From a virus: a stretch of 27,112 bases of DNA. Numbering within the stretch: the first letter of the stretch is position 1; each line of letters begins with the position of its first letter. The position numbers and the translations under genes were made by a program. This document shows positions 5,532 through 27,112 of the stretch, piece after piece. The DNA lies in the IMG/VR virus record IMGVR_UViG_3300009488_002389, positions 1 to 27,112 of that record. One strand, written 5' to 3'. The notes beneath the pieces are model-generated. The model was not told where the DNA came from. It searched no databases and was given only the letters and a program-made list of their open reading frames with translations.

Positions 5532-6092
5532 ATGAAAAAAATAAGAATGGAACGAATAGTAACACCTGAATTTAGGTTAAGTTACCCATCTATATTTGAG
5601 AAAACGAGTTTTGAAAATTCTCCGGAAAGATATGAAATAACCATGTTATTTCCCAAAAAGCCAGGGATCCCAGGTATAAAAAAGGCAATACAGGCTACTA
5701 TAGACGCAGCCTGGCCGGATAAAGAAACTAGGCCAAAACTGCTTGCTCATCCAATTAGAGACGGAGATCATGACTTTCCGAGTAAGGAAGAGTGTAAAAA
5801 TATGCATGTTCTAAAGGCATGGTGCTCACTAAATAAACCGGGTGTTGTAGATAAACACAGAAATCCTATAATTGATCCGGAAGATATATATGCAGGGTGT
5901 TGGTGCCGAGCGACACTGATCCCTTTTGCGTACGGTCCTCCAAAAGCACCAAAATCAGGTGTTAGTTTAATATTGCAAAATATTCAAAAACTAAAGGATG
6001 ATGACTCATTTAATAATAGAGTTGCTGCAGAACATGATTTTGACGCGATTGAAGAATCGGAAGAAACTGAACAAGAATCAATGTTTGATTGA
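5532..6092 (+). CDS. DUF2815 family single-stranded DNA-binding protein (gp2.5-like)
   Basis: A 186-residue protein that looks like DUF2815: an N-terminal strand-rich segment RLSYPSIFEK, then RYEITMLFPKK, and a C-terminal domain with KSGVSLILQNIQKLKDD. The last 17 residues are strongly acidic and end in MFD, like the acidic aromatic-tipped tail by which T7 gp2.5 and bacterial SSB recruit replication partners. It should coat ssDNA made by the helicase and nuclease and stimulate the polymerase. An AAAGGA ribosome site lies about 8 nt before ATG 5532. It follows the DUF2800 gene after a 60-bp gap without an obvious promoter. Immediately downstream is a strong terminator-type hairpin. Confidence 0.85.
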   Translation: MKKIRMERIVTPEFRLSYPSIFEKTSFENSPERYEITMLFPKKPGIPGIKKAIQATIDAAWPDKETRPKLLAHPIRDGDHDFPSKEECKNMHVLKAWCSLNKPGVVDKHRNPIIDPEDIYAGCWCRATLIPFAYGPPKAPKSGVSLILQNIQKLKDDDSFNNRVAAEHDFDAIEESEETEQESMFD

Positions 6093-6093
6093 A

Positions 6094-6127
6094 AAAAAAC
6101 GTAAGAGCTTATGCTCTTACGTTTTTT
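6094..6127. terminator. Intrinsic terminator between the ssDNA-binding protein and polymerase genes
   Basis: A perfect 15-bp hairpin with arms 6094-6108 and 6113-6127 and a TTAT loop. The core CGTAAGAGC/GCTCTTACG is followed by six T and preceded by eight A, so it can terminate in either direction. It would reduce transcription into the polymerase gene. It shares sequence with the next hairpin (6119-6163). Confidence 0.8.
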
Positions 6128-6163
6128 GAGTTAGAGTAGCTTATAGTCTAACTCAAAAAACGT
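6119..6163. promoter_or_regulatory. Second hairpin, mutually exclusive with the terminator, abutting the polymerase ribosome site
   Basis: Arms 6119-6135 and 6147-6163 are perfect 17-bp complements (ACGTTTTTTGAGTTAGA on the left) around an 11-nt loop. The left arm reuses the 3' side of the terminator stem (6119-6127), so both hairpins cannot form together. The right arm ends directly before the AGGGAG ribosome site (6164-6169) of the polymerase gene. It may protect the 5' end of, or set access to, the polymerase message. Confidence 0.6.
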
Positions 6164-6174
6164 AGGGAGTGCAT

Positions 6175-8166
6175 ATGAAATTAACTATTGATATGGAGTC
6201 ACGGGCTACTATTGATCTCATAAAACATGGTGTTTATAACTACGCAGGTCATGAAAATACCGATATCTTATGTCTAGCGTTTAAGTCTAGTGAGTCCGGA
6301 CAAGTTTTTTTATGGGCTCCGGAAAAATATGCTAAATACTATAACAAAGATACGGTGCCCAAGAAATTTTTAAATTCCCTAATTAAGCGCGCCGATGAGA
6401 TCGAGGCTCATAATATAAATTTTGAACGGGTTATGTGGTACTTCCAAATGCATAAAAAATATGGGTTTGAAAAGCTGCCGTTTAATAAATTAAGATGTTC
6501 TGCTGCTTTAACTGCTGTATTTGCGCTGCCTAGAAGACTAGAAGACGCCTGTAAAGTTTTAAATTTATCAGCTCAAAAAGATATGCAAGGCCATAAAATA
6601 ATGCAAAAAATGTGTAAGCCAAGACTGCCCCTAAAAGATGAAAAGATAGCAGATCCCTTGTATAAAGACCATATTTATTGGCACGAAAAATCTGAATTTT
6701 TTAGTGACCTTTTTGAATATTGTAAAAAAGATGTTCTCGCAGAGGAAGCGCTGGCTAATTATTTGCACCCCTTGATACCCTCGGAGCTAGAAATATTTAA
6801 ATATAATATGCGAATAAATGACAGGGGCATACCGGTTGATACAAAGACAGTAGCTAACTTAATTTGCAAAATTGAGGAAAAACAGAAGGCCATAAATCAC
6901 GAATTAAGTAAGTTAACAGATGGATTTATAGCTTCAGTAAATCAAACCGGTGCGTTAATGGAGTATTTAAAATGTGAAGGCTATAAAATGCCTAATCTCC
7001 AAAAAGAAACCATAAAAAAGCATATCGAACATGAACAAATGAGCTCAAAAATACAAAGTATATTAAAGCTAAGGCAGCAAGGCGTTAAAAGTTCAGTAAA
7101 AAAATTCAAAGCCTTTGAAAATATGGCGTCTAAAGACGGCAGATTTAGAGGAGGCCTAGTCTATCATGGCGCATCAACAGGCAGATGGACCGCAAAAGGA
7201 GTGCAGACTCAAAATTTACCTAGGGCATGTTTACCTGAAAAATTTATTAATGTTGTCTCACAGTTATCTATTTCAGCTATTGAATCAGTCCACGATTGCA
7301 TGATAAAAACGGCTAGTCAATGCATTAGAGGAGTAATAAAAGCAGGGCAGGATAATGAGTTTTATTGTGCAGATTTTAAATCTATAGAAGCACGGGTATT
7401 AGGTTGGTTAGCTAACGACGATAAAATGTTAGCTGCATTTCGATCCGGGCAAGATTTATATAAATTAACTGCAGCTGAAATTTATAATAAGCCCTATGAA
7501 TATATTAAAGATGATGAACGCCTTATAGGTAAAGTAGCTGTATTAGCACTTGGCTATAAGGGCTGGATAGGCGCTTTTCAATCAATGGCGCCTGTGTATG
7601 GCGTATATGTGCCGGACGATCAGGCAGGAGAGATTGCGGGTAAATGGAGAGAAGCTCATCCAAAGATAGTGAGCTACTGGCGAGGTATAGAGTACGCGGC
7701 TAAAGAAGTTGTGAAAAATATAAGGCTGGTGTCGTCATATGGGCGTGTGAAATTCGGAATGCGTGATGATTTTCTTTGCTGCCGATTGCCATCGGGACGT
7801 TTTATATATTGGTTTCGGCCGAAAATGGAAACTGTGTCTATTTATGGTAAAAAACAGGAAGTAATTAGTTACTGGGGCATACATTCTAAAACTAAAAAAT
7901 GGAATAAAGAATATTTACATGCCGGCCGGATTACTCAAAATATAGATCAGGCGATCTCTAGAGATATATTAGCTGCAGCGATTATTAATTGTGAGGATAA
8001 TGGATATGCAGTGGTTTTGCACACACACGATGAGATATTAGCAGAAGTTAAAAAAAATGAAAAAGATTTTAAAAATTTTATTAATCTGGTTTCACAAAAC
8101 CCGGATTGGGCGGCTGATCTCCCGATAGATGCTAAAGGATGGATAGGTCAAAGATATAAAAAATAA
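6175..8166 (+). CDS. Family A DNA polymerase with 3'-5' proofreading exonuclease
   Basis: A 663-residue phage PolA-type enzyme. The exonuclease domain shows ExoI LTIDMES (D6, E8), ExoII AHNINFE (N80, E84) and ExoIII YCKKD (Y182, D186). The polymerase domain shows motif A CADFKSIEARVLGWL (D400, E405), motif B with R449, K453 and Y461, and motif C HTHDE (H618-E620). No 5' nuclease domain is present, as in T7-like and many siphophage polymerases. I chose ATG 6175 over the in-frame GTG at 6169 because AGGGAG (6164-6169) ends 5 nt before the ATG, whereas it overlaps the GTG. It replicates phage DNA with the primase-helicase on the opposite strand at the left. It is the last plus-strand gene of the module and converges on the endolysin gene with only 22 bp between stops. 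Confidence 0.95.
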   Translation: MKLTIDMESRATIDLIKHGVYNYAGHENTDILCLAFKSSESGQVFLWAPEKYAKYYNKDTVPKKFLNSLIKRADEIEAHNINFERVMWYFQMHKKYGFEKLPFNKLRCSAALTAVFALPRRLEDACKVLNLSAQKDMQGHKIMQKMCKPRLPLKDEKIADPLYKDHIYWHEKSEFFSDLFEYCKKDVLAEEALANYLHPLIPSELEIFKYNMRINDRGIPVDTKTVANLICKIEEKQKAINHELSKLTDGFIASVNQTGALMEYLKCEGYKMPNLQKETIKKHIEHEQMSSKIQSILKLRQQGVKSSVKKFKAFENMASKDGRFRGGLVYHGASTGRWTAKGVQTQNLPRACLPEKFINVVSQLSISAIESVHDCMIKTASQCIRGVIKAGQDNEFYCADFKSIEARVLGWLANDDKMLAAFRSGQDLYKLTAAEIYNKPYEYIKDDERLIGKVAVLALGYKGWIGAFQSMAPVYGVYVPDDQAGEIAGKWREAHPKIVSYWRGIEYAAKEVVKNIRLVSSYGRVKFGMRDDFLCCRLPSGRFIYWFRPKMETVSIYGKKQEVISYWGIHSKTKKWNKEYLHAGRITQNIDQAISRDILAAAIINCEDNGYAVVLHTHDEILAEVKKNEKDFKNFINLVSQNPDWAADLPIDAKGWIGQRYKK

Positions 8167-8188
8167 AAGGCTTATTATTGTGTAAATA

Positions 8189-8617
8189 TTACTTGTAAAA
8201 AGGAATAGTAAAAAGATGGCTGCCTTTTACCCATTCGACGCTAAAATGTAGCCATGTTACCGTGTTTTTCTCTATCACAGTTAGCCCCCAGTCTCTATAT
8301 ACGTTTTCATAATTGTCTATTATATCTTTTTGCAGTTCAAAAAAATCTATTTTTTGAAAAACCAGATCAGCAGCCATCCCTCTTTTGTGCGCAGATAAAG
8401 GAGCCCCTATCGAGTTAGGCATACGAAACCCCGAATCATCTCTTAAGCCCTCCTTATAGAGATCATTAATAGTTATGGGTACATTAAACCGATCCCTGAA
8501 TTTCTGACATATAACTGGTACTAAGGGATGAATAAACCGTGTGCTCATCTCTCCGAACCTATTAAAGATTCGGAGAGGTACAAATTCCTGAAGATAAAAA
8601 TTATTACTTAATTTCAT
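8189..8617 (-). CDS. Endolysin, M15 family peptidase
   Basis: A 142-residue single-domain zinc peptidase of the M15 (M15A/VanY-like) group: SAHKRGMAADL gives the SxHxxGxAxD signature (H77, D84) and WLHFS supplies the third zinc ligand (H124). It would cut peptide cross-bridges of host peptidoglycan at lysis. There is no signal peptide and no cell-wall-binding domain, so it needs a holin, and the compact form suits a Gram-negative-type wall. It is the last gene of the lysis cassette. Its ATG lies 14 nt inside the holin candidate gene, implying translational coupling. The region between it and the polymerase (8167-8188) shows no strong terminator. Confidence 0.88.
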   Translation of the reverse strand: MKLSNNFYLQEFVPLRIFNRFGEMSTRFIHPLVPVICQKFRDRFNVPITINDLYKEGLRDDSGFRMPNSIGAPLSAHKRGMAADLVFQKIDFFELQKDIIDNYENVYRDWGLTVIEKNTVTWLHFSVEWVKGSHLFTIPFYK

Positions 8618-8798
8618 TACTAGGTTTGGTAGAAGGATACTTATCTTGTAGATAGGTTTTACCGCCTATTAAGGCGGTCCCCATGCCACATAGCATTATC
8701 ATAGCCTGAAACGCATTAGGCTCCGTTTTGATAAATCCATATGCCAGGCCGCCGCAAATCAGCAAAATACTTATAATTTTACTTATGGTCCATTTCAT
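8604..8798 (-). CDS. Holin candidate (two membrane segments)
   Basis: A 64-residue protein with two predicted membrane segments, residues about 5-23 (ISKIISILLICGGLAYGF) and 29-46 (AFQAMIMLCGMGTALIG), joined by a short KTEPN turn, and a charged hydrophilic C-terminal tail. This two-helix hairpin plus overlap with an endolysin gene is the class II holin pattern, though sequence alone does not prove the function. A GGAG ribosome site lies 6 nt before ATG 8798. It sits between the spanin-like gene and the endolysin in one cassette. It could instead be a pinholin or antiholin. Confidence 0.7.
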   Translation of the reverse strand: MKWTISKIISILLICGGLAYGFIKTEPNAFQAMIMLCGMGTALIGGKTYLQDKYPSTKPSNEIK

Positions 8799-8811
8799 AA
8801 TTAACTCCTTT

Positions 8812-9126
8812 CTATTTATTATTTTCGATTAGCCACAAAATAAAAAGAATTCCAAGCCCGTAATTTTTATACGTGTTATCTTGTTTAAGACTTAAAATTT
8901 CTGATTTTAAGTCAAGTATCTCAATATCTTTAATAGCTATATTATTTGTTAAAAAATTATTAGCATTTTTTAAAAGTAGATTATTTTTTAATAAATGGGG
9001 ATACACAGGTAATTTATTTTGCATTTTTTTTATTTCTAAATCGCTGTAACCTATTTCAAACCCGCTGGCAATAATTAAATTACCTATAATGCAGTATAAC
9101 AAAAATACAATTGCTATTTTTTTCAT
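8812..9126 (-). CDS. Exported coiled-coil protein with C-terminal membrane anchor (spanin-like)
   Basis: A 104-residue protein when started at ATG 9126, which has GGAGGT 4 nt upstream; an in-frame TTG at 9138 overlaps that site and is unlikely. The N-terminus MKKIAIVFLLYCIIGNLIIASG is a signal peptide. A GFEIGYS motif follows, then a helical, leucine-rich, probably coiled-coil stretch (about 58-85), then a C-terminal membrane segment GLGILFILWLI (about 90-100). Sec signal plus C-terminal anchor is the topology of a unimolecular spanin, although no good lipobox is visible. It is the first gene of the lysis cassette. It has a clear paralogue at 16076-16489, with the same GxEhGYS motif and the same ending. 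Role inferred. Confidence 0.65.
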   Translation of the reverse strand: MKKIAIVFLLYCIIGNLIIASGFEIGYSDLEIKKMQNKLPVYPHLLKNNLLLKNANNFLTNNIAIKDIEILDLKSEILSLKQDNTYKNYGLGILFILWLIENNK

Positions 9127-9155
9127 ATAAACCTCCAATTTTATTATATCATTTA

Positions 9156-9183
9156 ATTATAAGTATCTGTTATTATGTGTCAA
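9156..9183 (-). promoter_or_regulatory. Consensus promoter of the lysis cassette
   Basis: On the minus strand a perfect TTGACA (9178-9183) is followed after 16 bp by a perfect TATAAT (9156-9161). The transcript would begin near 9149, about 23 nt before ATG 9126. It directs the spanin-like, holin and endolysin genes independently of the fibre genes upstream. A perfect consensus suggests strong basal activity unless a repressor acts here. Confidence 0.8.
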
Positions 9184-9190
9184 TTGGATA

Positions 9191-9373
9191 TCATTCCGCT
9201 ATCAAATTTTTGTATTCTAATTCCGTTTTACTGCCTAGTTCATTTTCTATTCTTTTTTCTCACATATATTTATCTGCTTTGTCCGGATTTTTGATAACTT
9301 GTATAATCCCGGTAGTTCGGCATTTATCTGGGGCAAGTTGTCCAAAATAATTAGATATAATCCTATTTTTCAC
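9191..9373 (-). pseudogene. Small gene coupled to the LamG gene, interrupted by an in-frame UGA
   Basis: A frame begins with GTG at 9373-9371, which overlaps the TGA stop of the LamG gene as GTGA. It encodes 37 residues (MKNRIISNYFGQLAPDKC at the start, ending DKADKYM), meets TGA at 9260-9262, and continues in the same frame for 22 codons (EKRIENELGSKTELEY, then KNLIAE) to TGA at 9191-9193. The part after the stop still looks like coding sequence: charged, amphipathic and stop-free. Either a TGG tryptophan codon mutated to TGA, or the stop is read through, or only the 37-residue product is made. TGA ends other genes here, so a reassigned code is unlikely. Small proteins after tail-fibre genes are common; I recognise no family. 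Confidence 0.5.
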
Positions 9374-10155
9374 AGCCCCAGCCCCCATTTAACATTCAAA
9401 TAATCTGTTAAAATATTTATTTGTTTGCTCGTCAATGCTTTATCAAAAATTAATACTTCCCCAATTTCTCCGGAGATACCCGAAGCCCCACTGGCAAGAT
9501 AAGAACCAATGCGTGATATGGCAGATGATACAGTTGTTGATACTGAACTTTTCGCGGTATCTCTAACCCCATTAATCCAGCCCTGAACAATTGGATTAAA
9601 ATATGTACATATCTGTAAAGTGAAGCCGGTATCTATCACAGTATCAAGAAAATTCGCTTGAACCCCTGCTTGTACGTGCCTTAAAAAGGCTGACCCCGAT
9701 GGTTTATAAAAAACTACTGGGGCTACTGCTAAACCCAATCCGATAGGATGCATAGTAGCAGATCCCCCGCTAACAAAATTATATTTACACACAATAACGA
9801 TCGTATATGCGTTTAGTGCGGGAGTTGGTCCGTATTCCATGACATCAACATTAAAATTTATAGTTTGCTTCCCAGCAAAATCTGATAACCTCGGTTGTAA
9901 AGATGGGGTACCCTGGGCGGCATTAAAATTATTGCCCGATTTATCATACCATTGCGTTACAAAATCCCCATTTAAAGATATAGTATCGTCATCTTGTGCA
10001 TCAAACCAGGCTAAAGGTTCAAAAATTTCAGGGCTAAATATTCCAATTCGCGCATTCCCGGAAATAGTGGCTGTCCCAGAAATAGTAACTGCGTTTATAG
10101 CTTTAGATACTAAAATCAAGCAAATTACCATAGATATCAAAATTGTTTTTTTCAT
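9370..10155 (-). CDS. Exported LamG/concanavalin A-like lectin protein
   Basis: A 261-residue protein with a good Sec signal peptide (MKKTILISMVICLILVSK, cleavage likely after INA near residue 22). A LamG-type domain follows from about residue 48: AWFDAQDDDTI, then VTQWYDKSGNNFNAAQ, and ends with GEIGEVLIFDKALTSKQ and YLNVKWGL, the usual closing strands. Such domains bind carbohydrate or surface glycans. It sits last in the tail-fibre gene run, where receptor-binding proteins usually lie, yet the signal peptide would send it out of the cytoplasm. GGAG lies about 6 nt before ATG 10155. It is preceded by the 584-residue fibre-like gene (16-bp gap). Role: phage adhesin or host-surface modifier; undetermined. 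Confidence 0.75.
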   Translation of the reverse strand: MKKTILISMVICLILVSKAINAVTISGTATISGNARIGIFSPEIFEPLAWFDAQDDDTISLNGDFVTQWYDKSGNNFNAAQGTPSLQPRLSDFAGKQTINFNVDVMEYGPTPALNAYTIVIVCKYNFVSGGSATMHPIGLGLAVAPVVFYKPSGSAFLRHVQAGVQANFLDTVIDTGFTLQICTYFNPIVQGWINGVRDTAKSSVSTTVSSAISRIGSYLASGASGISGEIGEVLIFDKALTSKQINILTDYLNVKWGLGL

Positions 10156-10171
10156 GTTGTCTCCTTATAGA

Positions 10172-11926
10172 TTATTTTTTTATGACGCATCTCATCTCAG
10201 TTATAGTTGCGTTTGCAGCAAGTGCAGATCTGCGTTCAACATAAATAGCAATCCCTTCATCTGTATTAAGCAATATTAATCCAGAAAATCCAACCGGCAA
10301 AGTGTGCGTATTATCAGGTGATACTATTACGCCTCTAGCGCCGACCGTAAAATTGCCAGTCACGGAGCGTTTCATCACCATAGGTGCAAAAGCTCTTGCT
10401 GCGGCTACCGAGGACTCTATGGATAATTCACCGTCAATATCTAAAACAACAGACTCCAAACCCGTATAAATAATATATCCCTGATCAGCCCCATCATTAG
10501 TTCTGTAATAATTTATCCCTGTACCGGATGTTGTAAAATTAACGGTCGCGCCTCCTAGATTTTCAGACACATAAAATGTGGCCGCATTTATAGTTACCAC
10601 ATAATATTCAACATCTTCTGATAATCCTGTCGGTAATGTAGAACCCCCTTCCGTTTTAAGCGTCAACGAATCGTTTGAGGATAGCTCGTGATCAATTGCG
10701 GCGGTTATTATATCGGTATCGGCATTAAAAGTGCACTCTATTTGATGCGTCATGCGCTCCTCTATTTGCATATCTATAAACGTTGCATTTATTGATACTG
10801 GTGTGTTTTGCGCGGGTATCAACGTTAAATCTGTATTATCGCTTATCTGTATTTGTCCAATAACAGTAGAATCCGGCACATCAGCGCAATTAACAAAAGA
10901 TATGAATTTGTCCGTTTGATCCCTTGATCCTGGGGCAAAGGTTCCACCTCCAAAACTACGAGTATCAAGTATGCTATTACTAGCCCGTACCCCCTTTGTA
11001 TTAAGTGTTTTCGGGAAATTAAACATATATTCATTGGATTGCGGGATAAAATTGCCTCCTAAAATAGTTAAACTTTCATTATTACCTGAGACTGTTAAAT
11101 GTACGGCACCAGGAATATTAAAGCCATTGCGGAAAAGAGTTGGTGTAAAAGTTACAGCTTCGCAATTTTCTAGTTTTAAACCAAATCCAAAAAATTCAAA
11201 ATTGACTGCACGAAAAGATATAATTTTTTTACGGACGGTTCCCAAATCCAGCCAACCAGCGGCTAAATTTTCTTCCCAAATCATAAAGTTAAAAACGGAA
11301 TCGTCAGCGGTTATATCAAATAATGTATTACTATTAAATACATCGATAAATGATGTTAGTTTTGTCACAAAAAATCCAAATGCAGCATCAGCTACCAAAA
11401 ACGGTCCGGAGCCGACATAAGCAAAATTAAGATTAAATAGGGAAGGTGAATTTGAAACATCTAACCTATATGGAAGTACAAATGTTTCTTCACTTCCACC
11501 ACGATAATATTTATTCTCAAGAATAATCCTATCTCCAGACGGCGCAGGCAAATCAAATATTGAATTAACTATTACTAAATCTACCCCAGTGGCAGCTTTC
11601 CATTTCAGCCCATCCCAAAAACGAGAAGTAACATGAGAATTATCAAAAGTCATCGCCCCTGTTCCCATTCCCTCTAAATTCAGAACCTGTGTATTCGTCA
11701 TATTTGGAAACGGATACGAATAAGTCGATGTGGTAATTATTTCAGGTGTAACATCTAAATCCCCCTGCGGTTGTGTAGTCCCAATACCTAAATTGCCCGC
11801 ATCATCAATTACGACATTGGGCGACGGTATTTGGCCGGATTTTTTTATGATGCTATTGGAATCAGCTAAAACAGTAGTCAAAAGAAAAACTGTAAATAAA
11901 ATTATAGAACAAGCCGCTTTTTTCAT
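10172..11926 (-). CDS. Large exported fibre-like protein with GIGTT motif
   Basis: A 584-residue protein starting with a signal peptide (MKKAACSIILFTVFLLTTVLA, cleavage before DSN). Just after it, NVVIDDAGNLGIGTTQPQGD is the GIGTxxP element frequent in phage tail fibres and surface fibres. The rest is beta-rich, with repeated short strand/turn patterns (about residues 150-330 suggestive of a beta-helix) and a later region with ITAAIDHELSSNDSLTLKT and YVVTINAATFYVSENLGG, resembling a carbohydrate-binding or appendage domain. There is no recognisable enzymatic motif. Its ATG overlaps the stop of the 120-residue gene (ATGA). It probably forms an adhesive or fibre structure. Whether it assembles on the virion or the cell surface is the open question. 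Confidence 0.7.
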   Translation of the reverse strand: MKKAACSIILFTVFLLTTVLADSNSIIKKSGQIPSPNVVIDDAGNLGIGTTQPQGDLDVTPEIITTSTYSYPFPNMTNTQVLNLEGMGTGAMTFDNSHVTSRFWDGLKWKAATGVDLVIVNSIFDLPAPSGDRIILENKYYRGGSEETFVLPYRLDVSNSPSLFNLNFAYVGSGPFLVADAAFGFFVTKLTSFIDVFNSNTLFDITADDSVFNFMIWEENLAAGWLDLGTVRKKIISFRAVNFEFFGFGLKLENCEAVTFTPTLFRNGFNIPGAVHLTVSGNNESLTILGGNFIPQSNEYMFNFPKTLNTKGVRASNSILDTRSFGGGTFAPGSRDQTDKFISFVNCADVPDSTVIGQIQISDNTDLTLIPAQNTPVSINATFIDMQIEERMTHQIECTFNADTDIITAAIDHELSSNDSLTLKTEGGSTLPTGLSEDVEYYVVTINAATFYVSENLGGATVNFTTSGTGINYYRTNDGADQGYIIYTGLESVVLDIDGELSIESSVAAARAFAPMVMKRSVTGNFTVGARGVIVSPDNTHTLPVGFSGLILLNTDEGIAIYVERRSALAANATITEMRCVIKK

Positions 11927-12285
11927 TTAATTATCGGCAGCCAAAATATAGTTGTTGGACATTCTCCCCGGCTATTGGTTGCGACTATTTTATAATAATC
12001 ATCTTTTTTTACGATAAAATTTAGGCTCGCGCGAGAGATAAAAACACGCCTATCATCCCAATGTTCAGAGCTTGCCATTGCTACCATTGTTGTAGGGGTA
12101 GCCGATGAATCTGAATAGGCTATAATTTTTCCTTTATCGCTGATATTATCCGCATTAATATGCGCTATTATTAAGCCGTCAGCTTCTGCTCTATATGTAC
12201 TCCCAGCATTTTTAGTTAGCCAGGCCCCCGATATACCTCCGGTAATAGCCGCGGCCAGCAGCATCGCTAAAAATAATTTTTTCAT
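11923..12285 (-). CDS. Small exported protein of the fibre cluster
   Basis: A 120-residue protein from ATG 12285, chosen because GAGGT lies about 7 nt upstream and because a clean signal peptide starts here (MKKLFLAMLLAAAITGGISG, cleavage near residue 20); a frame extension upstream to 12342 merely overlaps the preceding gene. The mature part (AWLTKNAGSTYRAEADGLII) is predicted beta-rich and ends RGECPTTIFWLPIIK. The pattern of strands and the DDYYKIVATNS segment resemble small appendage or fibre-tip domains, but I do not recognise a family. It lies 4 bp after the 341-residue gene and overlaps the 584-residue gene by ATGA, so it is in the same translation unit. Confidence 0.65.
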   Translation of the reverse strand: MKKLFLAMLLAAAITGGISGAWLTKNAGSTYRAEADGLIIAHINADNISDKGKIIAYSDSSATPTTMVAMASSEHWDDRRVFISRASLNFIVKKDDYYKIVATNSRGECPTTIFWLPIIK

Positions 12286-12289
12286 ACGA

Positions 12290-13315
12290 TTACCTCGATG
12301 GTAAAACTTTAAAATAATCAAACTCAGTAAAATGGGCTGCATTTTCTTCAGTTTTATCTTGCATCATTTTTTGTTGAAGATTTGTAGGAACATTAGTGGA
12401 CACAGTTCCTTGGGACGCGCCATCGATAAACCACTCTAAGGTGGTGTCACTTGTAAAAATTACTGAAAATTTAATTTCAGCTGTTGTCGCTGCTTGTCCG
12501 GTATCCGTTGTGGTGCTGCCGCCGTTTGATACCTCTAAGGTCCAAATGTTAGAACCTGCATTATTTTTAATAACTCGGACATAATCGTTTCCCCAGCCCG
12601 ATCCCGCTTCTTTTAGTCCAAAAGCACATTGCATATTATTTGTTTGTTCTAGCTGCAGCCTGACAAGAAATGACGGCCGCTTAGTATTTATGTACATACA
12701 GATATCGTTATCATCATAGGATCGCGCATCACCATTTATCGCGCCGGTAGTTAATCTAACCCAGCCATTTGCTTTTGATAAAAACGTTGTTGATCCGGTT
12801 GATTCATCTACTGTCCAATTAGCGTTTAAGAATCCCCAAAACTCATGAATATCTATAGGATTAGTCTGATTAAGGTTACCGCTCACCTCTAAAGCTATGC
12901 CCAAATGGCCGGATACTTGACCTACCAAAAAATTATTTTTTATATATGAATTGTTACTTGCATTAAATAAAACATTTATATTGCCGGATGCGTCTTCCGC
13001 ACTAATTACAGAATTCTGGTTAGCATTTGTAACCTTGAAAATGCCATCAACATGCAATTGTACAGTAGGATTATTTGTCCCTATGCCAACTTGGCCCCCA
13101 TCTTCAATAAAAATACCTAAATTACCGGCGTCATCAAATATATATAGCCCATTGGCATCACGAGCATTTATAGTTGATAGCGACATTTCAGTATTAATGA
13201 GTTCAGCTAGTATAGTATTTTGCGGGTTTGCTAAGCGTCCGAAAGAATCTACATATCCACCGTAGCAAGTTAGCGTAAGAATAAACATGAGTAATGCTGA
13301 AAATAATATTTTCAT
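12290..13315 (-). CDS. Exported fibre-like protein with FGRLA motif and lectin-like C-terminal domain
   Basis: A 341-residue protein with a hydrophobic export signal (MKILFSALLMFILTLTCYGG). Next comes DSFGRLANPQNTILAELI, resembling the FGRLRVS element of phage fibre proteins, then NGLYIFDDAGNLGIF and QVGIGTNNPTVQLHVDG, the GIGTxNP element shared with the neighbouring fibre genes. Residues about 170-335 look like a concanavalin A-like sandwich (FLVRLQLEQTNN, WTLEVSNGG, TLEWFIDGASQGTV). The start overlaps the upstream stop as ATGA. The 76-residue protein encoded just upstream repeats its first 45 residues in shortened form. Likely a receptor- or glycan-binding surface protein; virion location not established. 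Confidence 0.7.
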   Translation of the reverse strand: MKILFSALLMFILTLTCYGGYVDSFGRLANPQNTILAELINTEMSLSTINARDANGLYIFDDAGNLGIFIEDGGQVGIGTNNPTVQLHVDGIFKVTNANQNSVISAEDASGNINVLFNASNNSYIKNNFLVGQVSGHLGIALEVSGNLNQTNPIDIHEFWGFLNANWTVDESTGSTTFLSKANGWVRLTTGAINGDARSYDDNDICMYINTKRPSFLVRLQLEQTNNMQCAFGLKEAGSGWGNDYVRVIKNNAGSNIWTLEVSNGGSTTTDTGQAATTAEIKFSVIFTSDTTLEWFIDGASQGTVSTNVPTNLQQKMMQDKTEENAAHFTEFDYFKVLPSR

Positions 13316-13542
13316 GGATTTACATTTTCTATCAGAATAGTGTTTTGAGCGCTAGCCATCTGTTTAAAACTGGTTATCTGATTTTTAGTGGCTATCAGTT
13401 CTATTAAATTTGTATTTTGTGGGCTCGCTAAGCGTCCAAAGATTCCTATATGGGCGTATGTACGGGTAGCTAGCGTTACTAAAATAAGTAATACAGCTAA
13501 AATTAGGACTAGCAATAATAAGTTATTAATCTTTTGATACAT
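13312..13542 (-). CDS. Short exported or anchored protein, truncated paralogue of the next gene's N-terminus
   Basis: A 76-residue protein with a long hydrophobic N-terminal segment (about 8-25, LLLLVLILAVLLILVTLA) and possible cleavage after TYA near residue 30. The remainder contains FGRLASPQNTNLIELIAT, nearly the same as FGRLANPQNTILAELINT of the 341-residue protein, followed by a degenerate second copy (MASAQNTILIENVN). It lacks the GIGT and lectin parts, so it looks like a partial duplication of that gene. It overlaps the upstream coiled-coil gene by 17 bp and the downstream gene by 4 bp. A GGGAG lies 13 nt before ATG 13542, so coupling probably drives translation. Function unknown. Confidence 0.6.
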   Translation of the reverse strand: MYQKINNLLLLVLILAVLLILVTLATRTYAHIGIFGRLASPQNTNLIELIATKNQITSFKQMASAQNTILIENVNP

Positions 13543-13837
13543 GTTTTATCAGTAGCTCCCTTATGTCTTTAATATCATCTTTTAGTTCACTTACTGTGTC
13601 GTTTAAGTTACTTATTTTAGTTTCAATAGTCTGAAGCCGCAGCCCAAATTTTTCATTGGTGTGCTTATCATTTTTAGTCACTGATATCTGTAGACGTTCT
13701 TCTGCCGCATTAGAGTTATCTTTTATTTGTTTTGTTAATTTTTTCATATTTATTAAATACACTCCAATTATGATTATATCAAAAATAAGGTAATAGGGTA
13801 CTCCTATCTTTTCCAAAATTTGAAGTAAAGCGCTCAT
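13526..13837 (-). CDS. N-terminally anchored coiled-coil protein
   Basis: A 103-residue protein with one membrane segment (residues about 13-30, PYYLIFDIIIIGVYLI) and a long charged helix from 32 to 100 with heptad-like leucine/isoleucine spacing (LQTIETKISNLNDTVSEL). This is the shape of an inner-membrane spanin subunit or of small XhlA-like phage membrane proteins, but no family is certain. Its ATG overlaps the TGA of the upstream gene (ATGA). It sits in the fibre operon, away from the endolysin, which weakens a lysis assignment. Confidence 0.6.
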   Translation of the reverse strand: MSALLQILEKIGVPYYLIFDIIIIGVYLINMKKLTKQIKDNSNAAEERLQISVTKNDKHTNEKFGLRLQTIETKISNLNDTVSELKDDIKDIRELLIKHVSKD

Positions 13838-14187
13838 CGTAAAAGATCAAATATTTTTTTAATTATTGAAAGAGTATCGCACGTAATTTTAGATTCTTGA
13901 TCAATTTGTTTAGCTGCTTTTTTAAGGTACTCTATTTCAGCATTTGTTAATAATAAAGGTAAACCTGTATCTTTTTTAGCGTCCCAAAAAGTCGCCTCAT
14001 TTTCAACTCTTATATTATAATTTTTTATTTCTTCTTGATTAATAGCTACTTTTTTAATAATATCTTGCCTGAGTGTCATATCAATTAGGTTACCCTGTGC
14101 CGGTAAGATATTAGTAAAATAAAGTCTTTCTTTAATTGATAGCTTTAAAACATTGTTAATGACTGCAGGCTCTACATTTTTTTGCAT
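13834..14187 (-). CDS. Hypothetical phage protein
   Basis: A 117-residue, mostly helical, charged protein without signal peptide or membrane segment. I recognise no domain. An AAAGGA site lies about 8 nt before ATG 14187. It follows the large fibre gene by 15 bp and overlaps the next gene by 4 bp, so it belongs to the same operon. Small helical proteins after fibre genes can be fibre chaperones, but nothing in the sequence proves this. Confidence 0.6.
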   Translation of the reverse strand: MQKNVEPAVINNVLKLSIKERLYFTNILPAQGNLIDMTLRQDIIKKVAINQEEIKNYNIRVENEATFWDAKKDTGLPLLLTNAEIEYLKKAAKQIDQESKITCDTLSIIKKIFDLLR

Positions 14188-14202
14188 GATTTTATTCCTT
14201 TC

Positions 14203-15303
14203 TTAAACACCTAGTTTTATTGTATTGTCATCGTCCGTATCTACCCATAATTCATCAGTTACTGCTCCAGCGCTCCCTTGAGTTGTGCCGGATTTAAGAT
14301 TGTATGCAAATATCCCGCCATCACTTTTTATTTCCATGCGCATTGTACCCAAATTGGTTGTAGTGGTAGCACCTGTAAAAAATTTTACAAGGGTTGCTGC
14401 ATCCCTTCCGTTTCTACCTCCACCGATAGCAGTAATATTATCTGATATATTTGCTCCCAAATGCATACCCACATAGCCCACAGATTCTGCATCAGCATAG
14501 TGAGAGCCTAATATACTGCCATCTTTATCTGTATTATTTGTTTCATTGCCTGATATTCTGAATTGCCCCAAAATATGTAGCCGATTACGAGGATTTGTAG
14601 TCCCCAGCCCAAGAAGCCCAGCTGCTGTTATCCTCATTTTTTCGGTGCCAGCTCTGGTAGTATTATTTGTGGCTGTATAAAGACGGACCTGTGTCGCTGC
14701 ATTGTGGGACGCTCCTCCGCCGCCCAATGACAACACGTTTTCGCCAAAATCAGAATAACTATATACTATTGCATAGCCCTCGACTTCTGCTGTCGAATCG
14801 TATTGAGATGCCAATAAAAAACCTGTTTTATTTGTCGTATCAATTTCACTTGAAGAAAGCCTAATTTTACTTTTAACATGCAAATCGTTTAACGGATTTG
14901 CGATACCTATTCCAACATTCCCAGCTGTTAAAATCCGCATTCTTTCTACTGTATTAGTAGAAAATATTGTATCACCTATCCCAACCCCATCCGTATTAGA
15001 TGCAAAAGCTAAACTCCCTGTACTAGTCATGCCTGTTGCTACTGCGGCTGCTGAGGTCATTACAGTTCCATCCGGAAATTGTACTCCGGATAAAGAGCTG
15101 ATTAATTTTTCAGCTGTTAGCTCTCCGGAAACTGTAAAACCACCAATTCCATTATTCTCTATGTAATTAATAGTTTTTAAGGTAATAGCGTCCAAATCAA
15201 TCTGTTTAGTTACGCCGCTTTGTACGGCCGCAAATATTTCAGAGCCGATTAAGGCCCCAGCAACCGGTAGATTACTTATAATCGAGTCGTTTGGATTAGG
15301 CAT
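14203..15303 (-). CDS. Tail fibre protein with internal duplication
   Basis: A 366-residue protein without a signal peptide, as expected for a virion fibre. The N-terminus (SIISNLPVAGALIGSEIFAA, then TKQIDLDAITL) matches the start of many phage tail proteins, and VQFPDGTVMTSAA is another fibre element. From about residue 125 two homologous modules of roughly 100 residues follow: NVGIGIANPLNDLHV to GTEKMRI, and LLGLGTTNPRNRLHI to GTMRMEI, each with GGG and AAT-V-(F/Y) elements. The end DELWVDTDDDNTIKLGV is a common fibre C-terminus; no S74 chaperone domain is present. It overlaps the upstream 129-residue gene by 8 bp and probably binds the host receptor. Confidence 0.8.
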   Translation of the reverse strand: MPNPNDSIISNLPVAGALIGSEIFAAVQSGVTKQIDLDAITLKTINYIENNGIGGFTVSGELTAEKLISSLSGVQFPDGTVMTSAAAVATGMTSTGSLAFASNTDGVGIGDTIFSTNTVERMRILTAGNVGIGIANPLNDLHVKSKIRLSSSEIDTTNKTGFLLASQYDSTAEVEGYAIVYSYSDFGENVLSLGGGGASHNAATQVRLYTATNNTTRAGTEKMRITAAGLLGLGTTNPRNRLHILGQFRISGNETNNTDKDGSILGSHYADAESVGYVGMHLGANISDNITAIGGGRNGRDAATLVKFFTGATTTTNLGTMRMEIKSDGGIFAYNLKSGTTQGSAGAVTDELWVDTDDDNTIKLGV

Positions 15304-15685
15304 AAATATTAATCACGTTCCAATTTTTATCCCCCGGAGCTATCGAGTCGTCCACTTTAAGTAATTCAATCGCCATATTCTCATTTGTTAAATAAACTGC
15401 GCCGTCATCGGCGTTAAAAATTTTTATATTCTTGGTTGCTGTGTCTTTTATGACAACGGCATCGATACCCGAGGCGGATTTAATCAAAAGTCTTTGACCG
15501 ATAATACCACCTTCGATATTTTCGATGCTTCCTGAATTTGAAATAATTACTAGCTCCGAATCTATAGTAATTTCATTTGATGCTATTTGAGTAGATGCAA
15601 GTATCCCTGATAATCCAAAATTATCATTAATCCTGCCAGGGATGACGTTATTATTTGCGTCGGTTACAGTTTCATGTAGTGTCAA
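15296..15685 (-). CDS. Beta-rich tail/fibre-associated protein, TTG start
   Basis: A 129-residue beta-rich protein. TTG 15685 is the only start in this frame with a ribosome site (GGAGGG about 10 nt upstream); an ATG nearby is out of frame. Segments such as QRLLIKSASGIDAVVIKD and AVYLTNENMAIELLKVDD resemble the repetitive strand units of fibre or needle proteins, ending DKNWNVINIY, typical of fibre-domain endings. It is the first gene of the fibre operon, about 50 bp downstream of an extended -10 promoter, and overlaps the 366-residue fibre gene by 8 bp. Likely a fibre adaptor or short fibre. Confidence 0.65.
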   Translation of the reverse strand: MTLHETVTDANNNVIPGRINDNFGLSGILASTQIASNEITIDSELVIISNSGSIENIEGGIIGQRLLIKSASGIDAVVIKDTATKNIKIFNADDGAVYLTNENMAIELLKVDDSIAPGDKNWNVINIYA

Positions 15686-15785: not shown

Positions 15786-15861
15786 TGGTAACTGGGGCCG
15801 GACTTGAACAGGCGACCTTCGGGGTATGAACCCGATAAGCTACTAACTGCTCTACCCCGTA
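15786..15861 (-). tRNA. Initiator-like tRNA-Met (CAU), some stem mismatches
   Basis: A complete 76-nt cloverleaf with encoded CCA on the minus strand. Arms: acceptor TACGGGG/CCCAGTT, D stem GAGC/GCTT, anticodon stem TCGGG/CCCGA around TTCATAC (anticodon CAT), T arm GCCTG-TTCAAGT-CCGGC. Three consecutive G-C pairs close the anticodon loop and positions 1:72 are unpaired (U-U), both hallmarks of bacterial initiator tRNA. Mismatches: G4-A69 in the acceptor and U52-C62 in the T stem. The D loop is short and lacks one of the usual two G. It may be a divergent functional phage tRNA, a decayed one, or a recombination (attachment) remnant. Confidence 0.75.
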
Positions 15862-16075: not shown

Positions 16076-16489
16076 CTAATTAACAAGATTCATAGCCCAA
16101 ACAGTTCCAAAAATTGTGAATGCTATTTTTATCCAAAAGTTATCACTTTCAAGGGATTTGTTTTGGGCTTCTAAGTCTTTAATCTGCTTGGTTTTTAATT
16201 CAAAATCTTCAATTAATAGATTATTGTAATTCTTTAGAATTATATTCTTTACTATTAGAGCCGAACTTTTATCCATCATTTCATCATAGGTGGATAGCTT
16301 TATTTTCTTAATTCTTTTTTTGACTAGCTTACTAAAATATTCTTTGTTTTCTTCTAACAGTATGAATTCTTTGGGATCAATATTCTTCTTGAGTAGCTCC
16401 TCTTCAGAGTAGCCCACTTCAATACCGCCAGCTATATTACAATTTGAAAACACCCCCAGCATCAACATAAAACAAATTATTCTTTTCAT
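16076..16489 (-). CDS. Exported coiled-coil protein with C-terminal anchor, paralogue of the lysis-cassette protein
   Basis: A 137-residue protein: signal peptide (MKRIICFMLMLGVFSNCN, cleavage near IAGG), then GIEVGYSEEELLKK, then a long charged helical region with coiled-coil character (LKTKQIKDLEAQNKSLESDN) and a C-terminal hydrophobic segment IKIAFTIFGTVWAMNLV. Its motif order and ending match the protein at 8812-9126, with about 30 extra residues in the middle. By that relationship it may be a second spanin-like or envelope protein. It overlaps the regulator gene by ATGA and is therefore co-translated with it, in a regulated accessory operon rather than with holin and endolysin. It may thus serve the lysogen instead of lysis. 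No certain lipobox. Confidence 0.65.
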   Translation of the reverse strand: MKRIICFMLMLGVFSNCNIAGGIEVGYSEEELLKKNIDPKEFILLEENKEYFSKLVKKRIKKIKLSTYDEMMDKSSALIVKNIILKNYNNLLIEDFELKTKQIKDLEAQNKSLESDNFWIKIAFTIFGTVWAMNLVN

Positions 16490-16680: not shown

Positions 16681-16696
16681 ATTTCAATATGATAAG
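16673..16696. promoter_or_regulatory. 24-nt palindrome covering the regulator start codon and -10 box
   Basis: CTTATCATATT (16673-16683) and AATATGATAAG (16686-16696) are perfect 11-bp inverted repeats with a 2-bp centre. The palindrome contains the regulator's ATG and its TATCAT -10 box. A dimeric HTH protein bound here would shut off its own gene, so autoregulation is the simplest reading. As RNA, only part of it would be transcribed. Confidence 0.55.
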
Positions 16697-16717
16697 GGAT
16701 TTGGTGCAGCTTGTCAA
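16689..16717 (-). promoter_or_regulatory. Promoter of the HTH/spanin-like operon
   Basis: On the minus strand TTGACA (16712-16717) and TATCAT (16689-16694) are exactly 17 bp apart. Only 8 nt separate the -10 from ATG 16680, so transcription should start at or within a few bases of the start codon. Its -35 lies 5 bp from the -35 of the opposite promoter. Confidence 0.75.
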
Positions 16718-16722
16718 CAGCG

Positions 16723-16755
16723 TTGACAAACGGTTCCCCGCCGTGGTACTATAAT
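16723..16755 (+). promoter_or_regulatory. Promoter of the beta-barrel-like gene
   Basis: TTGACA at 16723-16728, followed after 18 bp by TACTAT (16747-16752) with a TGG extension at 16744-16746; a perfect TATAAT at 16750-16755 lies 21 bp from the -35. Together this is a credible extended -10 promoter. It is back-to-back with the minus-strand promoter, and both -35 boxes form TTGTCAA-N5-TTGACAA (16711-16729). The two polymerases could not bind fully at once. Confidence 0.6.
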
Positions 16756-16789: not shown

Positions 16790-16826
16790 ACGCTAGGTCG
16801 ATAAAAAAATAGAAATGGAGAAAATT

Positions 16827-17432
16827 ATGAATATGAAAAAGATTTTTAAAGCAATACTAATAATGATGGTTGGGATTAATGTTTGTACCTTAGGCGCTGT
16901 TAATTTTGATCTAAAGAAAAACATTGAATGGAGCGATAGTTTAGAAACTGTCCTTTACGATGATGCTCTTTATGGCACCTTTGATAATAACAGCCGTTAT
17001 GATTTTGGTGCTAAAATTGAGTATGCTGTCACCTCTAACATTTATTATTTCGCTAAAGCCGCCTATCTAGATGATGCAGCCTTGAATATAAACCAGTCTT
17101 TTAACTTTAGTGCTGGATATGGGCTTTGTATCAAAAACTATGAAAAGGGTACGGAGTATTTTGTATCAAAGCTAGAAATAGGCTTTTTAAGCCGTGGTGA
17201 TCAACATAATTATCTAGTAAGCATGATAGATTATTATGAGAATAAATATTTTGGGTATCAAGCCACATGTGACATTATCAAATCCTTAAGCGATGATTTA
17301 ACGGAAATAGCAGCCGAAATTAAAACGTTTCTTGTTTTAGATGTTTTCCGCCCCGGTGCGTCAATACACTTTAATCAAGCAAATGGAGCAGCTTATTATA
17401 CAATAGCCCTGGATTGTGGAATAACACTCTAA
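16827..17432 (+). CDS. Exported, probably outer-membrane beta-barrel-like protein (phage accessory gene)
   Basis: A 201-residue protein from ATG 16827, chosen because GGAG (16817-16820) lies 6 nt before it; the ATG at 16815 overlaps that site. A signal peptide (MNMKKIFKAILIMMVGIN, cleavage after TLGA) is followed by alternating aromatic/polar strands: YDFGAKIEYAVTSNIYYFAK, FNFSAGYGLCI, YFVSKLEIGFL, KYFGYQATCDII and the end AAYYTIALDCGITL. This pattern suggests a small beta-barrel, but no named family is recognised. It is the only plus-strand gene after the replication module, has its own promoter and terminator, and is divergent from the HTH operon. This is the pattern of a lysogenic-conversion (moron) gene that could change the host surface or block superinfection. 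Role inferred. Confidence 0.65.
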   Translation: MNMKKIFKAILIMMVGINVCTLGAVNFDLKKNIEWSDSLETVLYDDALYGTFDNNSRYDFGAKIEYAVTSNIYYFAKAAYLDDAALNINQSFNFSAGYGLCIKNYEKGTEYFVSKLEIGFLSRGDQHNYLVSMIDYYENKYFGYQATCDIIKSLSDDLTEIAAEIKTFLVLDVFRPGASIHFNQANGAAYYTIALDCGITL

Positions 17433-17438
17433 GGCCTT

Positions 17439-17470
17439 TAATCCCTGGCTATATAATTAGCCAGGGATTA
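17439..17470. terminator. Bidirectional terminator ending the barrel-like gene and the late operon
   Basis: Perfect 13-bp stem TAATCCCTGGCTA (17439-17451) and TAGCCAGGGATTA (17458-17470) with a TATAAT loop; TTTCTTTATT follows on the plus strand. The stop codon and last codons of the minus-strand tail-tip gene lie inside the stem, so one structure serves both converging transcripts. Confidence 0.8.
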
Positions 17471-20355: not shown

Positions 20356-21258
20356 AATTCTTGTTTCCATTAACTCAAGTTTTACGGCCCCTCGCGCTTT
20401 TTCGCCCCAAGGATTTACTACCCACTTAGCTTTTGCCTCAATAAGATACACATCATTAATACTAAAATCCGGAATATCGCCTTCTGTAAATTCTCCGGAG
20501 CTTGGGAAAAAATTAAAGATGCCTCCGTTATTAACTATTTCTCTAATTAATTTATATTCCTTAGTTGATAAAGACCTCAAAATCATTGATGAATTAAAAA
20601 TACTTTTAACTCTATTCAGAATAGAATGCCCAAGATAATCCCTATTTAATTTACCTTTTGGGTCGCTAAAATTTTCATCATAACTAAGAACTTTACCCGT
20701 CTGAAGTTTCATATACCTGCGGCCCATGTAAAGCTCGCCAATTCTTTTTTCTTGATTTTCTATTTGAGTAAGAGTAATTTCAAATTTAAAAAACTGACCT
20801 GTTGTAACTGTTTCAGTTAATAATGCCTCTCCATTTTCTTGTAGTAACCGCCCATAATTCTCAAGCCGCAAAGGCAAGCTGTCACCAATTAGGCCTAGAT
20901 CGTCCGATTCCCAATGAATCGCACTACTAGCGTAATTAGAGTATGTTTTAACTACTGTATATCCCGCCTCACCTCTACGCCTCCTTGAAATAATTAAATC
21001 TTTAAAATTAATGCCTAGTAGTTTAATGATATCGATTTCGACGTCATCTTTAAAATCAATAATGATAGAAACTGTTACTGTATCGTCATCTGCTTTTTTA
21101 GTATACAAGAGTCCTGATGACTTATGATCATAAAGTAAATGTTTATCGTTAGCATACCATTTTTCCGGAGGATTAAAAGTTATTTCAAAATTTGGATTAA
21201 TATTACTATCTAAAAAATTAGCCTCGCAAAGCTCAAATTTTAAAGTATCTTGTGCCAT
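20344..21258 (-). CDS. Distal tail / minor tail protein
   Basis: A 304-residue protein following the tape measure gene, its ATG overlapping that gene's TAA (TAATG). It is beta-rich with no signal peptide, and by place and size matches a distal tail or tape-measure-attached minor tail protein. Segments WYANDKHLLYDHKS and KFEITLTQIENQEKRIGELYM, then GELYMGRRYMKL, resemble tail-tip ring proteins of Gram-negative siphophages, but similarity is weak. It probably connects tape measure and tail tip. Confidence 0.65.
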   Translation of the reverse strand: MAQDTLKFELCEANFLDSNINPNFEITFNPPEKWYANDKHLLYDHKSSGLLYTKKADDDTVTVSIIIDFKDDVEIDIIKLLGINFKDLIISRRRRGEAGYTVVKTYSNYASSAIHWESDDLGLIGDSLPLRLENYGRLLQENGEALLTETVTTGQFFKFEITLTQIENQEKRIGELYMGRRYMKLQTGKVLSYDENFSDPKGKLNRDYLGHSILNRVKSIFNSSMILRSLSTKEYKLIREIVNNGGIFNFFPSSGEFTEGDIPDFSINDVYLIEAKAKWVVNPWGEKARGAVKLELMETRISST

Positions 21259-26831: not shown

Positions 26832-27112
26832 TTAGCTCCTTTCTATCTTTACAATTGTTTTTTGCTCAATAAACTTTTTTCCGACCTCTTCCGGAAAAAT
26901 ATTAATGTCCCTTAGTTTTTTGCCTTTGGGAAACAATACTCCGTCATGCTGTATATTACCCCGTAACATAAATCGGAATGTATCTCCTGCTTCTAGCTCC
27001 AAATCCTTTGAATCATCCTCAGTTTCTAAAACTTCTAGCTCCAAATCCTTTGAATCATCCTCAGTTTCTAAAACTTCTAGCTCCAAATCCTTTGAATCAT
27101 CCTCAGTTTCTA
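26832..27112 (-). CDS. Acidic tandem-repeat protein, partial at the right edge
   Basis: The frame is open past the window end, so the true start is not visible; a TTG inside the repeats is not a start. The visible 93 residues begin with three copies of a 14-residue acidic unit (ELEVLETEDDSKDL), then a small basic domain (NIQHDGVLFPKGKKLRDINI, ending KTIVKIERS) similar to short HDG-type domains found near capsid genes. It may be a linker or scaffold-like protein. The gene count in the repeat beyond 27112 is unknown. Confidence 0.6.
   Translation of the reverse strand, partial: ETEDDSKDLELEVLETEDDSKDLELEVLETEDDSKDLELEAGDTFRFMLRGNIQHDGVLFPKGKKLRDINIFPEEVGKKFIEQKTIVKIERS
26990..27112. repeat. 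Perfect 42-bp tandem repeat
   Basis: Three units, at 27071-27112, 27029-27070 and 26990-27028 (last one 39 bp), identical in every base. The unit is 14 codons long and keeps frame. Further copies may continue beyond the window edge. Confidence 0.9.

Follow-up and report, generated by a model that had tools for sequence, protein, structure and literature searches.

The question raised by this locus is why a tailed phage should encode, beside a tail fibre of the ordinary kind, a series of fibre-like proteins whose N-termini have the appearance of Sec signal peptides. The window analysed, 27,112 bases with a GC content of 0.366, is the whole of IMG/VR record IMGVR_UViG_3300009488_002389. On its plus strand lies a replication module consisting of an SNF2-type helicase, an exonuclease, a single-strand binding protein and a family A polymerase, with a primase-type gene on the minus strand at the left end; the minus strand otherwise encodes tail proteins, a tape measure protein (21258–23375), then the fibre region and then a lysis group. 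No close relative was found, the best identity in an alignment of the polymerase over 80 viral-contig loci being 36%, and the polymerase loci that were fetched had no fibre or tail genes in common with the window. The tape measure protein showed 25–28% identity to those of other phages. Exact back-translated peptides of the genes at 12290 and 10172 and of the tape measure gave zero matches in viral contigs, as did the pattern FGRLA.PQNT; four matches to this pattern in genome contigs were attributed to chance, their frames being unrelated or short. A host search with the tail protein at 17457 against 369 genomes, representing the class of a Legionellales genome, returned nothing in a run that had no positive control. 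It should also be noted that the rightmost protein of the record (26832–27110, minus strand) opens with repeats of LEVLETEDDSKDLE and that the record ends inside the repeat.

A preliminary description of this region had reported export signals on four minus-strand genes, namely those of P1 (9370–10155), P2 (10172–11926), P3 (11923–12285) and P4 (12290–13315), and a hydrophobic anchor on a fifth, P5 (13312–13542). The coordinates and reading frames of all five genes were found to be correct. All genes of the window were scored with a signal rule that combined a von Heijne weight matrix with hydrophobicity and the charge of the n-region. The predicted cleavage sites fall between MKKTILISMVICLILVSKAINA and VTI in P1, MKKAACSIILFTVFLLTTVLA and DSN in P2, MKKLFLAMLLAAAITGGISGA and WLT in P3, MKILFSALLMFILTLTCYG and GYV in P4, and MYQKINNLLLLVLILAVLLILVTLATRTYA and HIG in P5, with all but that of P3 having been placed by eye rather than at the matrix optimum. 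The five N-termini have n-regions with a charge of +1 or +2, hydrophobic cores with a 10-residue Kyte-Doolittle mean of 2.8–3.8 and sigcleave-type scores of 4.2–7.5. P1 to P4 display the full Sec feature set, with a positive n-region, a hydrophobic h-region and the small residues at −3 and −1 that are expected of signal peptidase I substrates. P5 also has the −3 and −1 residues, but its hydrophobic segment is longer than those of the other four, with a core of approximately 18 residues that would suffice for an anchor. Within the replication, head and tail genes of the window the hydrophobic core never exceeded 1.9, and the only non-exported genes above this value were the holin-like gene at 8604 (2.65) and a membrane-coiled-coil gene at 13526 (2.94, with an uncharged n-region). 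The start codons of the signal-bearing genes are not arbitrary, since those of P4 and P2 lie in ATGA overlaps with the preceding genes of P5 and P3, respectively, and Shine-Dalgarno sites precede P1 (AAGGAG) and P3 (GAGG). The presence of textbook Sec signal peptides on P1 to P4 was confirmed by these sequence features, with export itself being a prediction. Three further genes, at 8812, 16076 and 16827 (the last of outer-membrane type), also have the look of exported proteins. As none of the signals of the window follows the Q-rule (glutamine at +1), it is inferred that the host is probably not a bacteroidete and is another Gram-negative bacterium.

Signals of this kind were found to be uncommon in comparable material. 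Among ORFs of at least 200 amino acids, the signal rule was passed by 4 of 12 in the window and by 8 of 960 in the control set of viral contigs (Fisher p = 6.3e-6), some of the control passes being plainly false and two of them resembling helicases. The corresponding counts for ORFs of at least 100 amino acids were 7/26 and 44/2010 (p = 1.9e-6). Sampling of viral contigs by fibre motif led to the same picture: a signal was present in 2 of 90 AGNLGIGT ORFs with a complete 5′ end (L192 and L207), in 6 of 96 GNVGIGTT ORFs (L363, L434, L435 and L456 by the rule, L409 and L422 by eye) and in 0 of 118 FGRLRVSNP ORFs, each count being a sample and applying to the matches listed. Signals on fibre modules are therefore rare but recurrent, occurring on a few percent at most, and this window has several in succession. 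The preliminary remark that export is unexpected for fibres agrees with these counts.

The mature parts of the proteins are for the most part fibre-like, as had been proposed, with matches to tail-fibre or virion families for P1, P4 and the plain fibre at 14203. P1 (261 amino acids) has a LamG/ConA-like domain following its signal; its residues 31–260 matched phrog_10356, a virion structural family (E 6.6e-20), while its match to Laminin_G_3 was weak (E 0.0023, below the Pfam cut-off). A tblastn search related it to Rheinheimera phage gp135 (28.8%, 85% cover) and to proteins of cyanophages and Erythrobacter phage, several of which are annotated as virion structural. A possible ORF of 37–38 amino acids with a GTG start (approximately 9260–9373, minus strand) overlaps the stop of this gene (MKNRIISNYFGQLAPDKCRTTGIIQVIKNPDKADKYM). 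P2 (584 amino acids) carries a capping motif, DDAGNLGIGTTQP, at residue 46, soon after the signal, followed by a long beta-rich region and a tail-type module (HELSSNDSLTL..GGSTLPTGL), with residues 413–473 weakly matching minor tail proteins of Microbacterium phages (E 0.1–0.8). P3 is small (120 amino acids) and gave no match in searches of the Pfam and PHROG families. Of the lectin-like domains or fibre motifs which all these proteins had been said to carry, P3 has neither, and P1 provides the sole evidence for a lectin fold, weak by Pfam.

P4 (341 amino acids) contains an FGRLANPQNT module, a VGIGTNNP capping motif at residue 76 and a beta-sandwich-like C-terminal head with two cysteines. 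Its residues 43–93 (51 amino acids) share 59% identity with the tail fibre of a Synechococcus phage, it has a fibre module in common with the non-exported 14203 protein (E 1e-4), and its similarity to the Bdellovibrio MAT fibre 8ojn is weak (E 0.04). Matches of P4 to immunoglobulin light chains in the PDB (best E 0.006) were weak and were taken as chance. P5 (76 amino acids), with its hydrophobic signal or anchor and two FGRLA-type repeats, is a truncated paralogue of the P4 N-terminus (43% over 47 residues, E 1e-6) and is linked to the fibre families through P4 only. Upstream of P5 on the minus strand follow an overlapping gene for 103 amino acids with an N-terminal membrane segment and a coiled coil (13526–13837, coiled-coil-type matches only), and, in ATGA overlap with it, a gene of the same operon for 117 amino acids without a convincing Pfam or PHROG family (13834–14187). 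The plain tail fibre (14203–15303, minus strand, 366 amino acids) was correctly described as having no signal; the GIGT motif ascribed to it is in fact present as the variants GIGIANP and GLGTTNP. It matched phrog_9942 (E 1.5e-10), the tail fiber family phrog_18345 and the Bdellovibrio Bd2133 fibre (PDB 8ond, E 7.5e-9), and directly upstream it is overlapped by a gene for a fibre-associated protein of 129 amino acids (15296–15685, minus strand), likewise without a signal and with no significant Pfam or PHROG family. Mature P1, P2 and P4 contain two, four and two cysteines, and the plain fibre none. No Peptidase_S74 match was obtained anywhere in the record. Single-sequence AlphaFold models of P4 and P1 reached mean pLDDT values of 41.7 and 31.7, too poor for fold searches.

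On the minus strand between 9.4 and 15.7 kb no strong match was found in a promoter scan that covered sigma-70-like promoters, and matches of 11/12 and 12/12 flank the block at 16717–16689 and 9183–9156. It is likely, from the position of these promoter matches and the head-to-tail arrangement of the genes, that the fibre block is read with the late genes and co-expressed with the plain fibre, which lies upstream, and with the lysis genes downstream. These comprise an M15-peptidase-type endolysin (8189–8617, minus strand; phrog_894, E 2.8e-15; Peptidase_M15_3, E 0.011) and a small membrane protein with a hydrophobic N-terminus and a weak match to an unnamed PHROG, holin-like by position (8604–8798, minus strand). 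Directly upstream of both lies the gene of a predicted exported protein with a C-terminal membrane segment (8812–9126, minus strand) under its own consensus promoter (TTGACA-16-TATAAT at 9183–9156).

The 8812–9126 gene has a paralogue at 16076–16489 (minus strand, E 7e-11), and both encode a signal-like N-terminus, a coiled-coil-like middle and a C-terminal membrane segment, have a low GC content (0.23 and 0.30) and follow the strong sigma-70-like promoter matches just given. Placed beside the holin-like and endolysin genes, the former has a topology like that of a unimolecular spanin without a canonical lipobox. A tRNA-Met with the anticodon CAT (15786–15861, minus strand) was detected by ARAGORN and Rfam between the fibre genes and 16076. 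The sole plus-strand gene between the tail and fibre genes (16815–17432, ATG at 16827) encodes an outer-membrane-type protein with a signal peptide and a DUF481 match (E 8e-4); with divergent promoter matches upstream (16689–16752) and a 13-bp terminator at 17439–17470, it has the appearance of a moron of the lom type.

Signal-bearing fibres also occur in seven viral contigs (G001, G002 and G373–G377) that were read whole or in large part. The order in G373 is that of the window: a tape measure gene, a 1216-amino-acid fibre without a signal (two ORF pieces joined by their coordinates), an exported fibre matching the tail-fibre family phrog_5668 (E 1e-23) and Peptidase_S74 (E 3e-10), a second exported protein, a holin and an Amidase_3 endolysin. 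In G374 (L461) four consecutive signal-bearing genes (5673–11478) are preceded by tail genes and followed by a holin-like gene, with the last of the four containing five capping motifs and matching a tail-fibre PHROG (E 2e-21); no fibre candidate without a signal was found in this interval. Exported fibres sit within virion modules in G001 and G376. G001 has terminase, portal and major head genes, and its exported protein of 707 amino acids contains repeated capping motifs, matches tail-fibre PHROGs and ends in a K1-lyase domain; in G376 a likely head gene is followed at a short distance by an exported fibre with S74. In G002, which has a major head gene, two adjoining exported proteins lie at the end of the tail region, and in G375 and G377 exported fibre-motif genes are present in less clear surroundings. 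Related architectures are thus found in unrelated tailed-phage contigs, and the feature is recurrent. It was also observed that small signal-like proteins lie directly beside a major or likely head gene in G376 (L463, 6507–7627) and G001 (L335, near 13429–14133).

Glutamine occupies the +1 position of the apparent cleavage site in all nine signals examined in G373, G374 and G375, although two of the nine sites score poorly and one is not among the sites listed by the matrix, and these were placed by eye. The Q-rule is followed by approximately 71% of signal peptidase I substrates across Bacteroidetes (PMC10653852), and phages of Porphyromonas gingivalis are reported to use it for proteins of unknown function (PMC10367356). 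Such agreement is unexpected of hydrophobic segments serving another purpose, and it argues that these signals are real and matched to their hosts. The four Q-rule genes of G374 stand at the tail-fibre position of a Bacteroidota-type phage contig, with holin-like and lipoprotein genes coming after them.

It is suspected, with confidence falling somewhat below even, that the predicted-exported fibre paralogues are expressed late and act at the surface of the infected cell, masking receptors there or on debris. The display of fibre-like adhesins or receptor decoys on the host, put forward in the preliminary description, is as a hypothesis compatible with the data. We infer the export itself, as well as the location, ligand, timing and masking function of these proteins, in the following scheme. 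The phage would make two kinds of fibre, a cytoplasmic tail fibre for the virion (14203–15303) and Sec-exported paralogues (9370–13542), the latter crossing the inner membrane with removal of their signals. The mature paralogues would fold in the periplasm or at the surface into beta-fibres with lectin-like or sandwich heads, most likely binding the glycans recognised by the phage's own fibre, and the receptors on the infected cell and on debris would thereby be masked when progeny are released. The adjoining plain fibre and the lysis genes that come next support this explanation. Against it, the four signal-bearing genes of G374 can also be read as export of fibres that belong to the virion itself, and expression at a late stage is less than ideal as a block to superinfection. 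For the exported proteins of the window, neither an anchor in the outer membrane nor a route of translocation to the surface was identified, so they might stay in the periplasm.

The exported proteins could instead be true virion fibres that mature in the periplasm, forming disulphides and trimers, and that join the progeny tails when lysis mixes the compartments. The virion structural PHROG of P1, the cysteines of mature P1, P2 and P4 that have no counterpart in 14203, and the lack of a signal-free candidate in G374 all fit this explanation, as do the ends of the exported spikes of G001 and G376 in a K1-lyase C-terminal domain and in S74, which are trimerisation or maturation domains of phage spikes. 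However, tail assembly is cytoplasmic, the literature searched yielded no example of exported fibres being attached late, and in both the window and G373 the exported fibres have an ordinary one as their neighbour. The explanation is accordingly considered unlikely, although by no means negligible, and the preliminary premise that sets export against a virion role stands in so far as export is unusual for fibre modules, whereas the exclusion of a virion role is not proven in view of G374. More improbable is that the N-termini serve virion proteins as hydrophobic plugs or as anchors in a membrane. P5, with its long core, may stay uncleaved and 13526 has a plain membrane anchor, but the other four proteins have charged n-regions, short cores and small −3 and −1 residues, the equivalents in Bacteroidota-type phages obey the Q-rule throughout, and the N-termini, apart from those of P4 and P5, are mutually unrelated, which fits signals rather than a shared attachment part; on this evidence an anchor or plug function is very doubtful.

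Surface adhesins of moron type, altering the host cell by lysogenic conversion in the manner of the Bdellovibrio MAT fibres or lambda Lom, would also be exported. The MAT fibres are themselves exported and contain trimeric beta-helices like those of phages (PMC10769870), solved examples resemble 14203 and, weakly, P4, and the gene at 16827, which has a promoter match and a terminator of its own, is placed like lom between tail and fibre genes (PMC12309495). The exported fibre genes, in contrast, lack strong promoter matches of their own, overlap each other and late genes, share the GC of the phage and offer no room for the N-terminal domain of approximately 130 residues that defines the MATs; nor is an integrase present in the window, which is a fragment. 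Lysogenic conversion is hence regarded as an improbable account of these genes. The preliminary description had also raised an origin from host surface proteins, and bacterial genes that the phage acquired, or that entered the contig by misassembly, would find a precedent in signal-bearing bacterial fibres such as the MATs (PMC10769870). This is disfavoured and the least probable explanation, since the mature parts consist of fibre modules of phage type whose GC is that of the phage itself, with the P4 module also occurring in 14203, the gene order overlaps phage genes and the pattern recurs in other phage contigs. The GC content of the exported fibre genes (0.33–0.40) and their GC3 equal those of the structural genes, so a recent capture from the host is unlikely.

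Surface masking by exported paralogues remains the preferred reading. The presence of the same arrangement in several unrelated viruses suggests that fibre-like proteins are placed by some phages not only on their own particles but also on, or outside, the cell they infect. If the export is real, annotation as a tail fibre does not by itself imply a part of the virion, and an additional set of receptor-binders, located outside the cell, would be made by some phages; this could mean a testable form of self-protection, in which progeny are not trapped and rivals are excluded, or else a novel way of maturing virions, and would affect the choice of receptor-binding proteins when host range is predicted. 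The unrelated contigs in which the pattern recurs, some with Q-rule signals, provide a family in which the export idea can be tested. No description of signal-bearing tail-fibre paralogues was found in the literature searched, outside which most subscription journals lie. In its broader form the proposal is a tentative one, namely that tailed phages of several host groups follow a recurrent, undescribed strategy, encoding between their fibre and lysis genes Sec-exported paralogues of their own tail fibres, with signals tuned to host secretion, which may coat the infected cell or debris with receptor-binding modules.

Among known systems, the Q-rule proteins of Porphyromonas gingivalis phages are likewise phage-encoded with host-type Sec signals and have no known function, but they are not described as tail-fibre paralogues (PMC10367356), and the signals of the window do not follow the Q-rule. 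The MAT fibres of Bdellovibrio bacteriovorus (PMC10769870; PDB 8ond and 8ojn) are also exported and combine phage-type trimeric beta-helix modules and capping loops with diverse heads; they are, however, bacterial genes, and the best PDB match (8ond) goes to the non-exported fibre of the window. The 21 MATs share a domain of approximately 130 residues directly after the signal (PMC10769870), whereas the first capping motif occurs at residue 46 in P2 and at residue 76 in P4, leaving approximately 25 and 57 mature residues, so that, judged by length and not by sequence, P2 and P4 lack room for this domain and fall outside the MAT definition. The MAT capping motif V-G-G/N-x-X-X-P-X-X-X-L (PMC10769870) is matched loosely by LGIGTTQPQGDL in P2 and VGIGTNNPTVQL in P4, and capping loops of this type are also common in phages. 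Lambda Lom (PMC12309495) is likewise exported and encoded between tail and fibre genes, a position like that of 16827–17432, but is a beta-barrel rather than a fibre. Ordinary phage tail fibres (phrog_9942, phrog_18345 and phrog_5668) have the same modules, capping motifs and genome place, and differ in that a signal peptide is rare among them in the sampled contigs. The FGRLRVS virion proteins of phrog_1645 have an FGRL motif near the N-terminus, as do P4 and P5, but none of the 118 among the matches listed has a signal, and P4 and P5 do not match the family. For the C-terminal S74 domain of the Peptidase_S74 chaperone fibres, finally, the window gave no match, whereas G373 and G376 each have an exported fibre that carries it.
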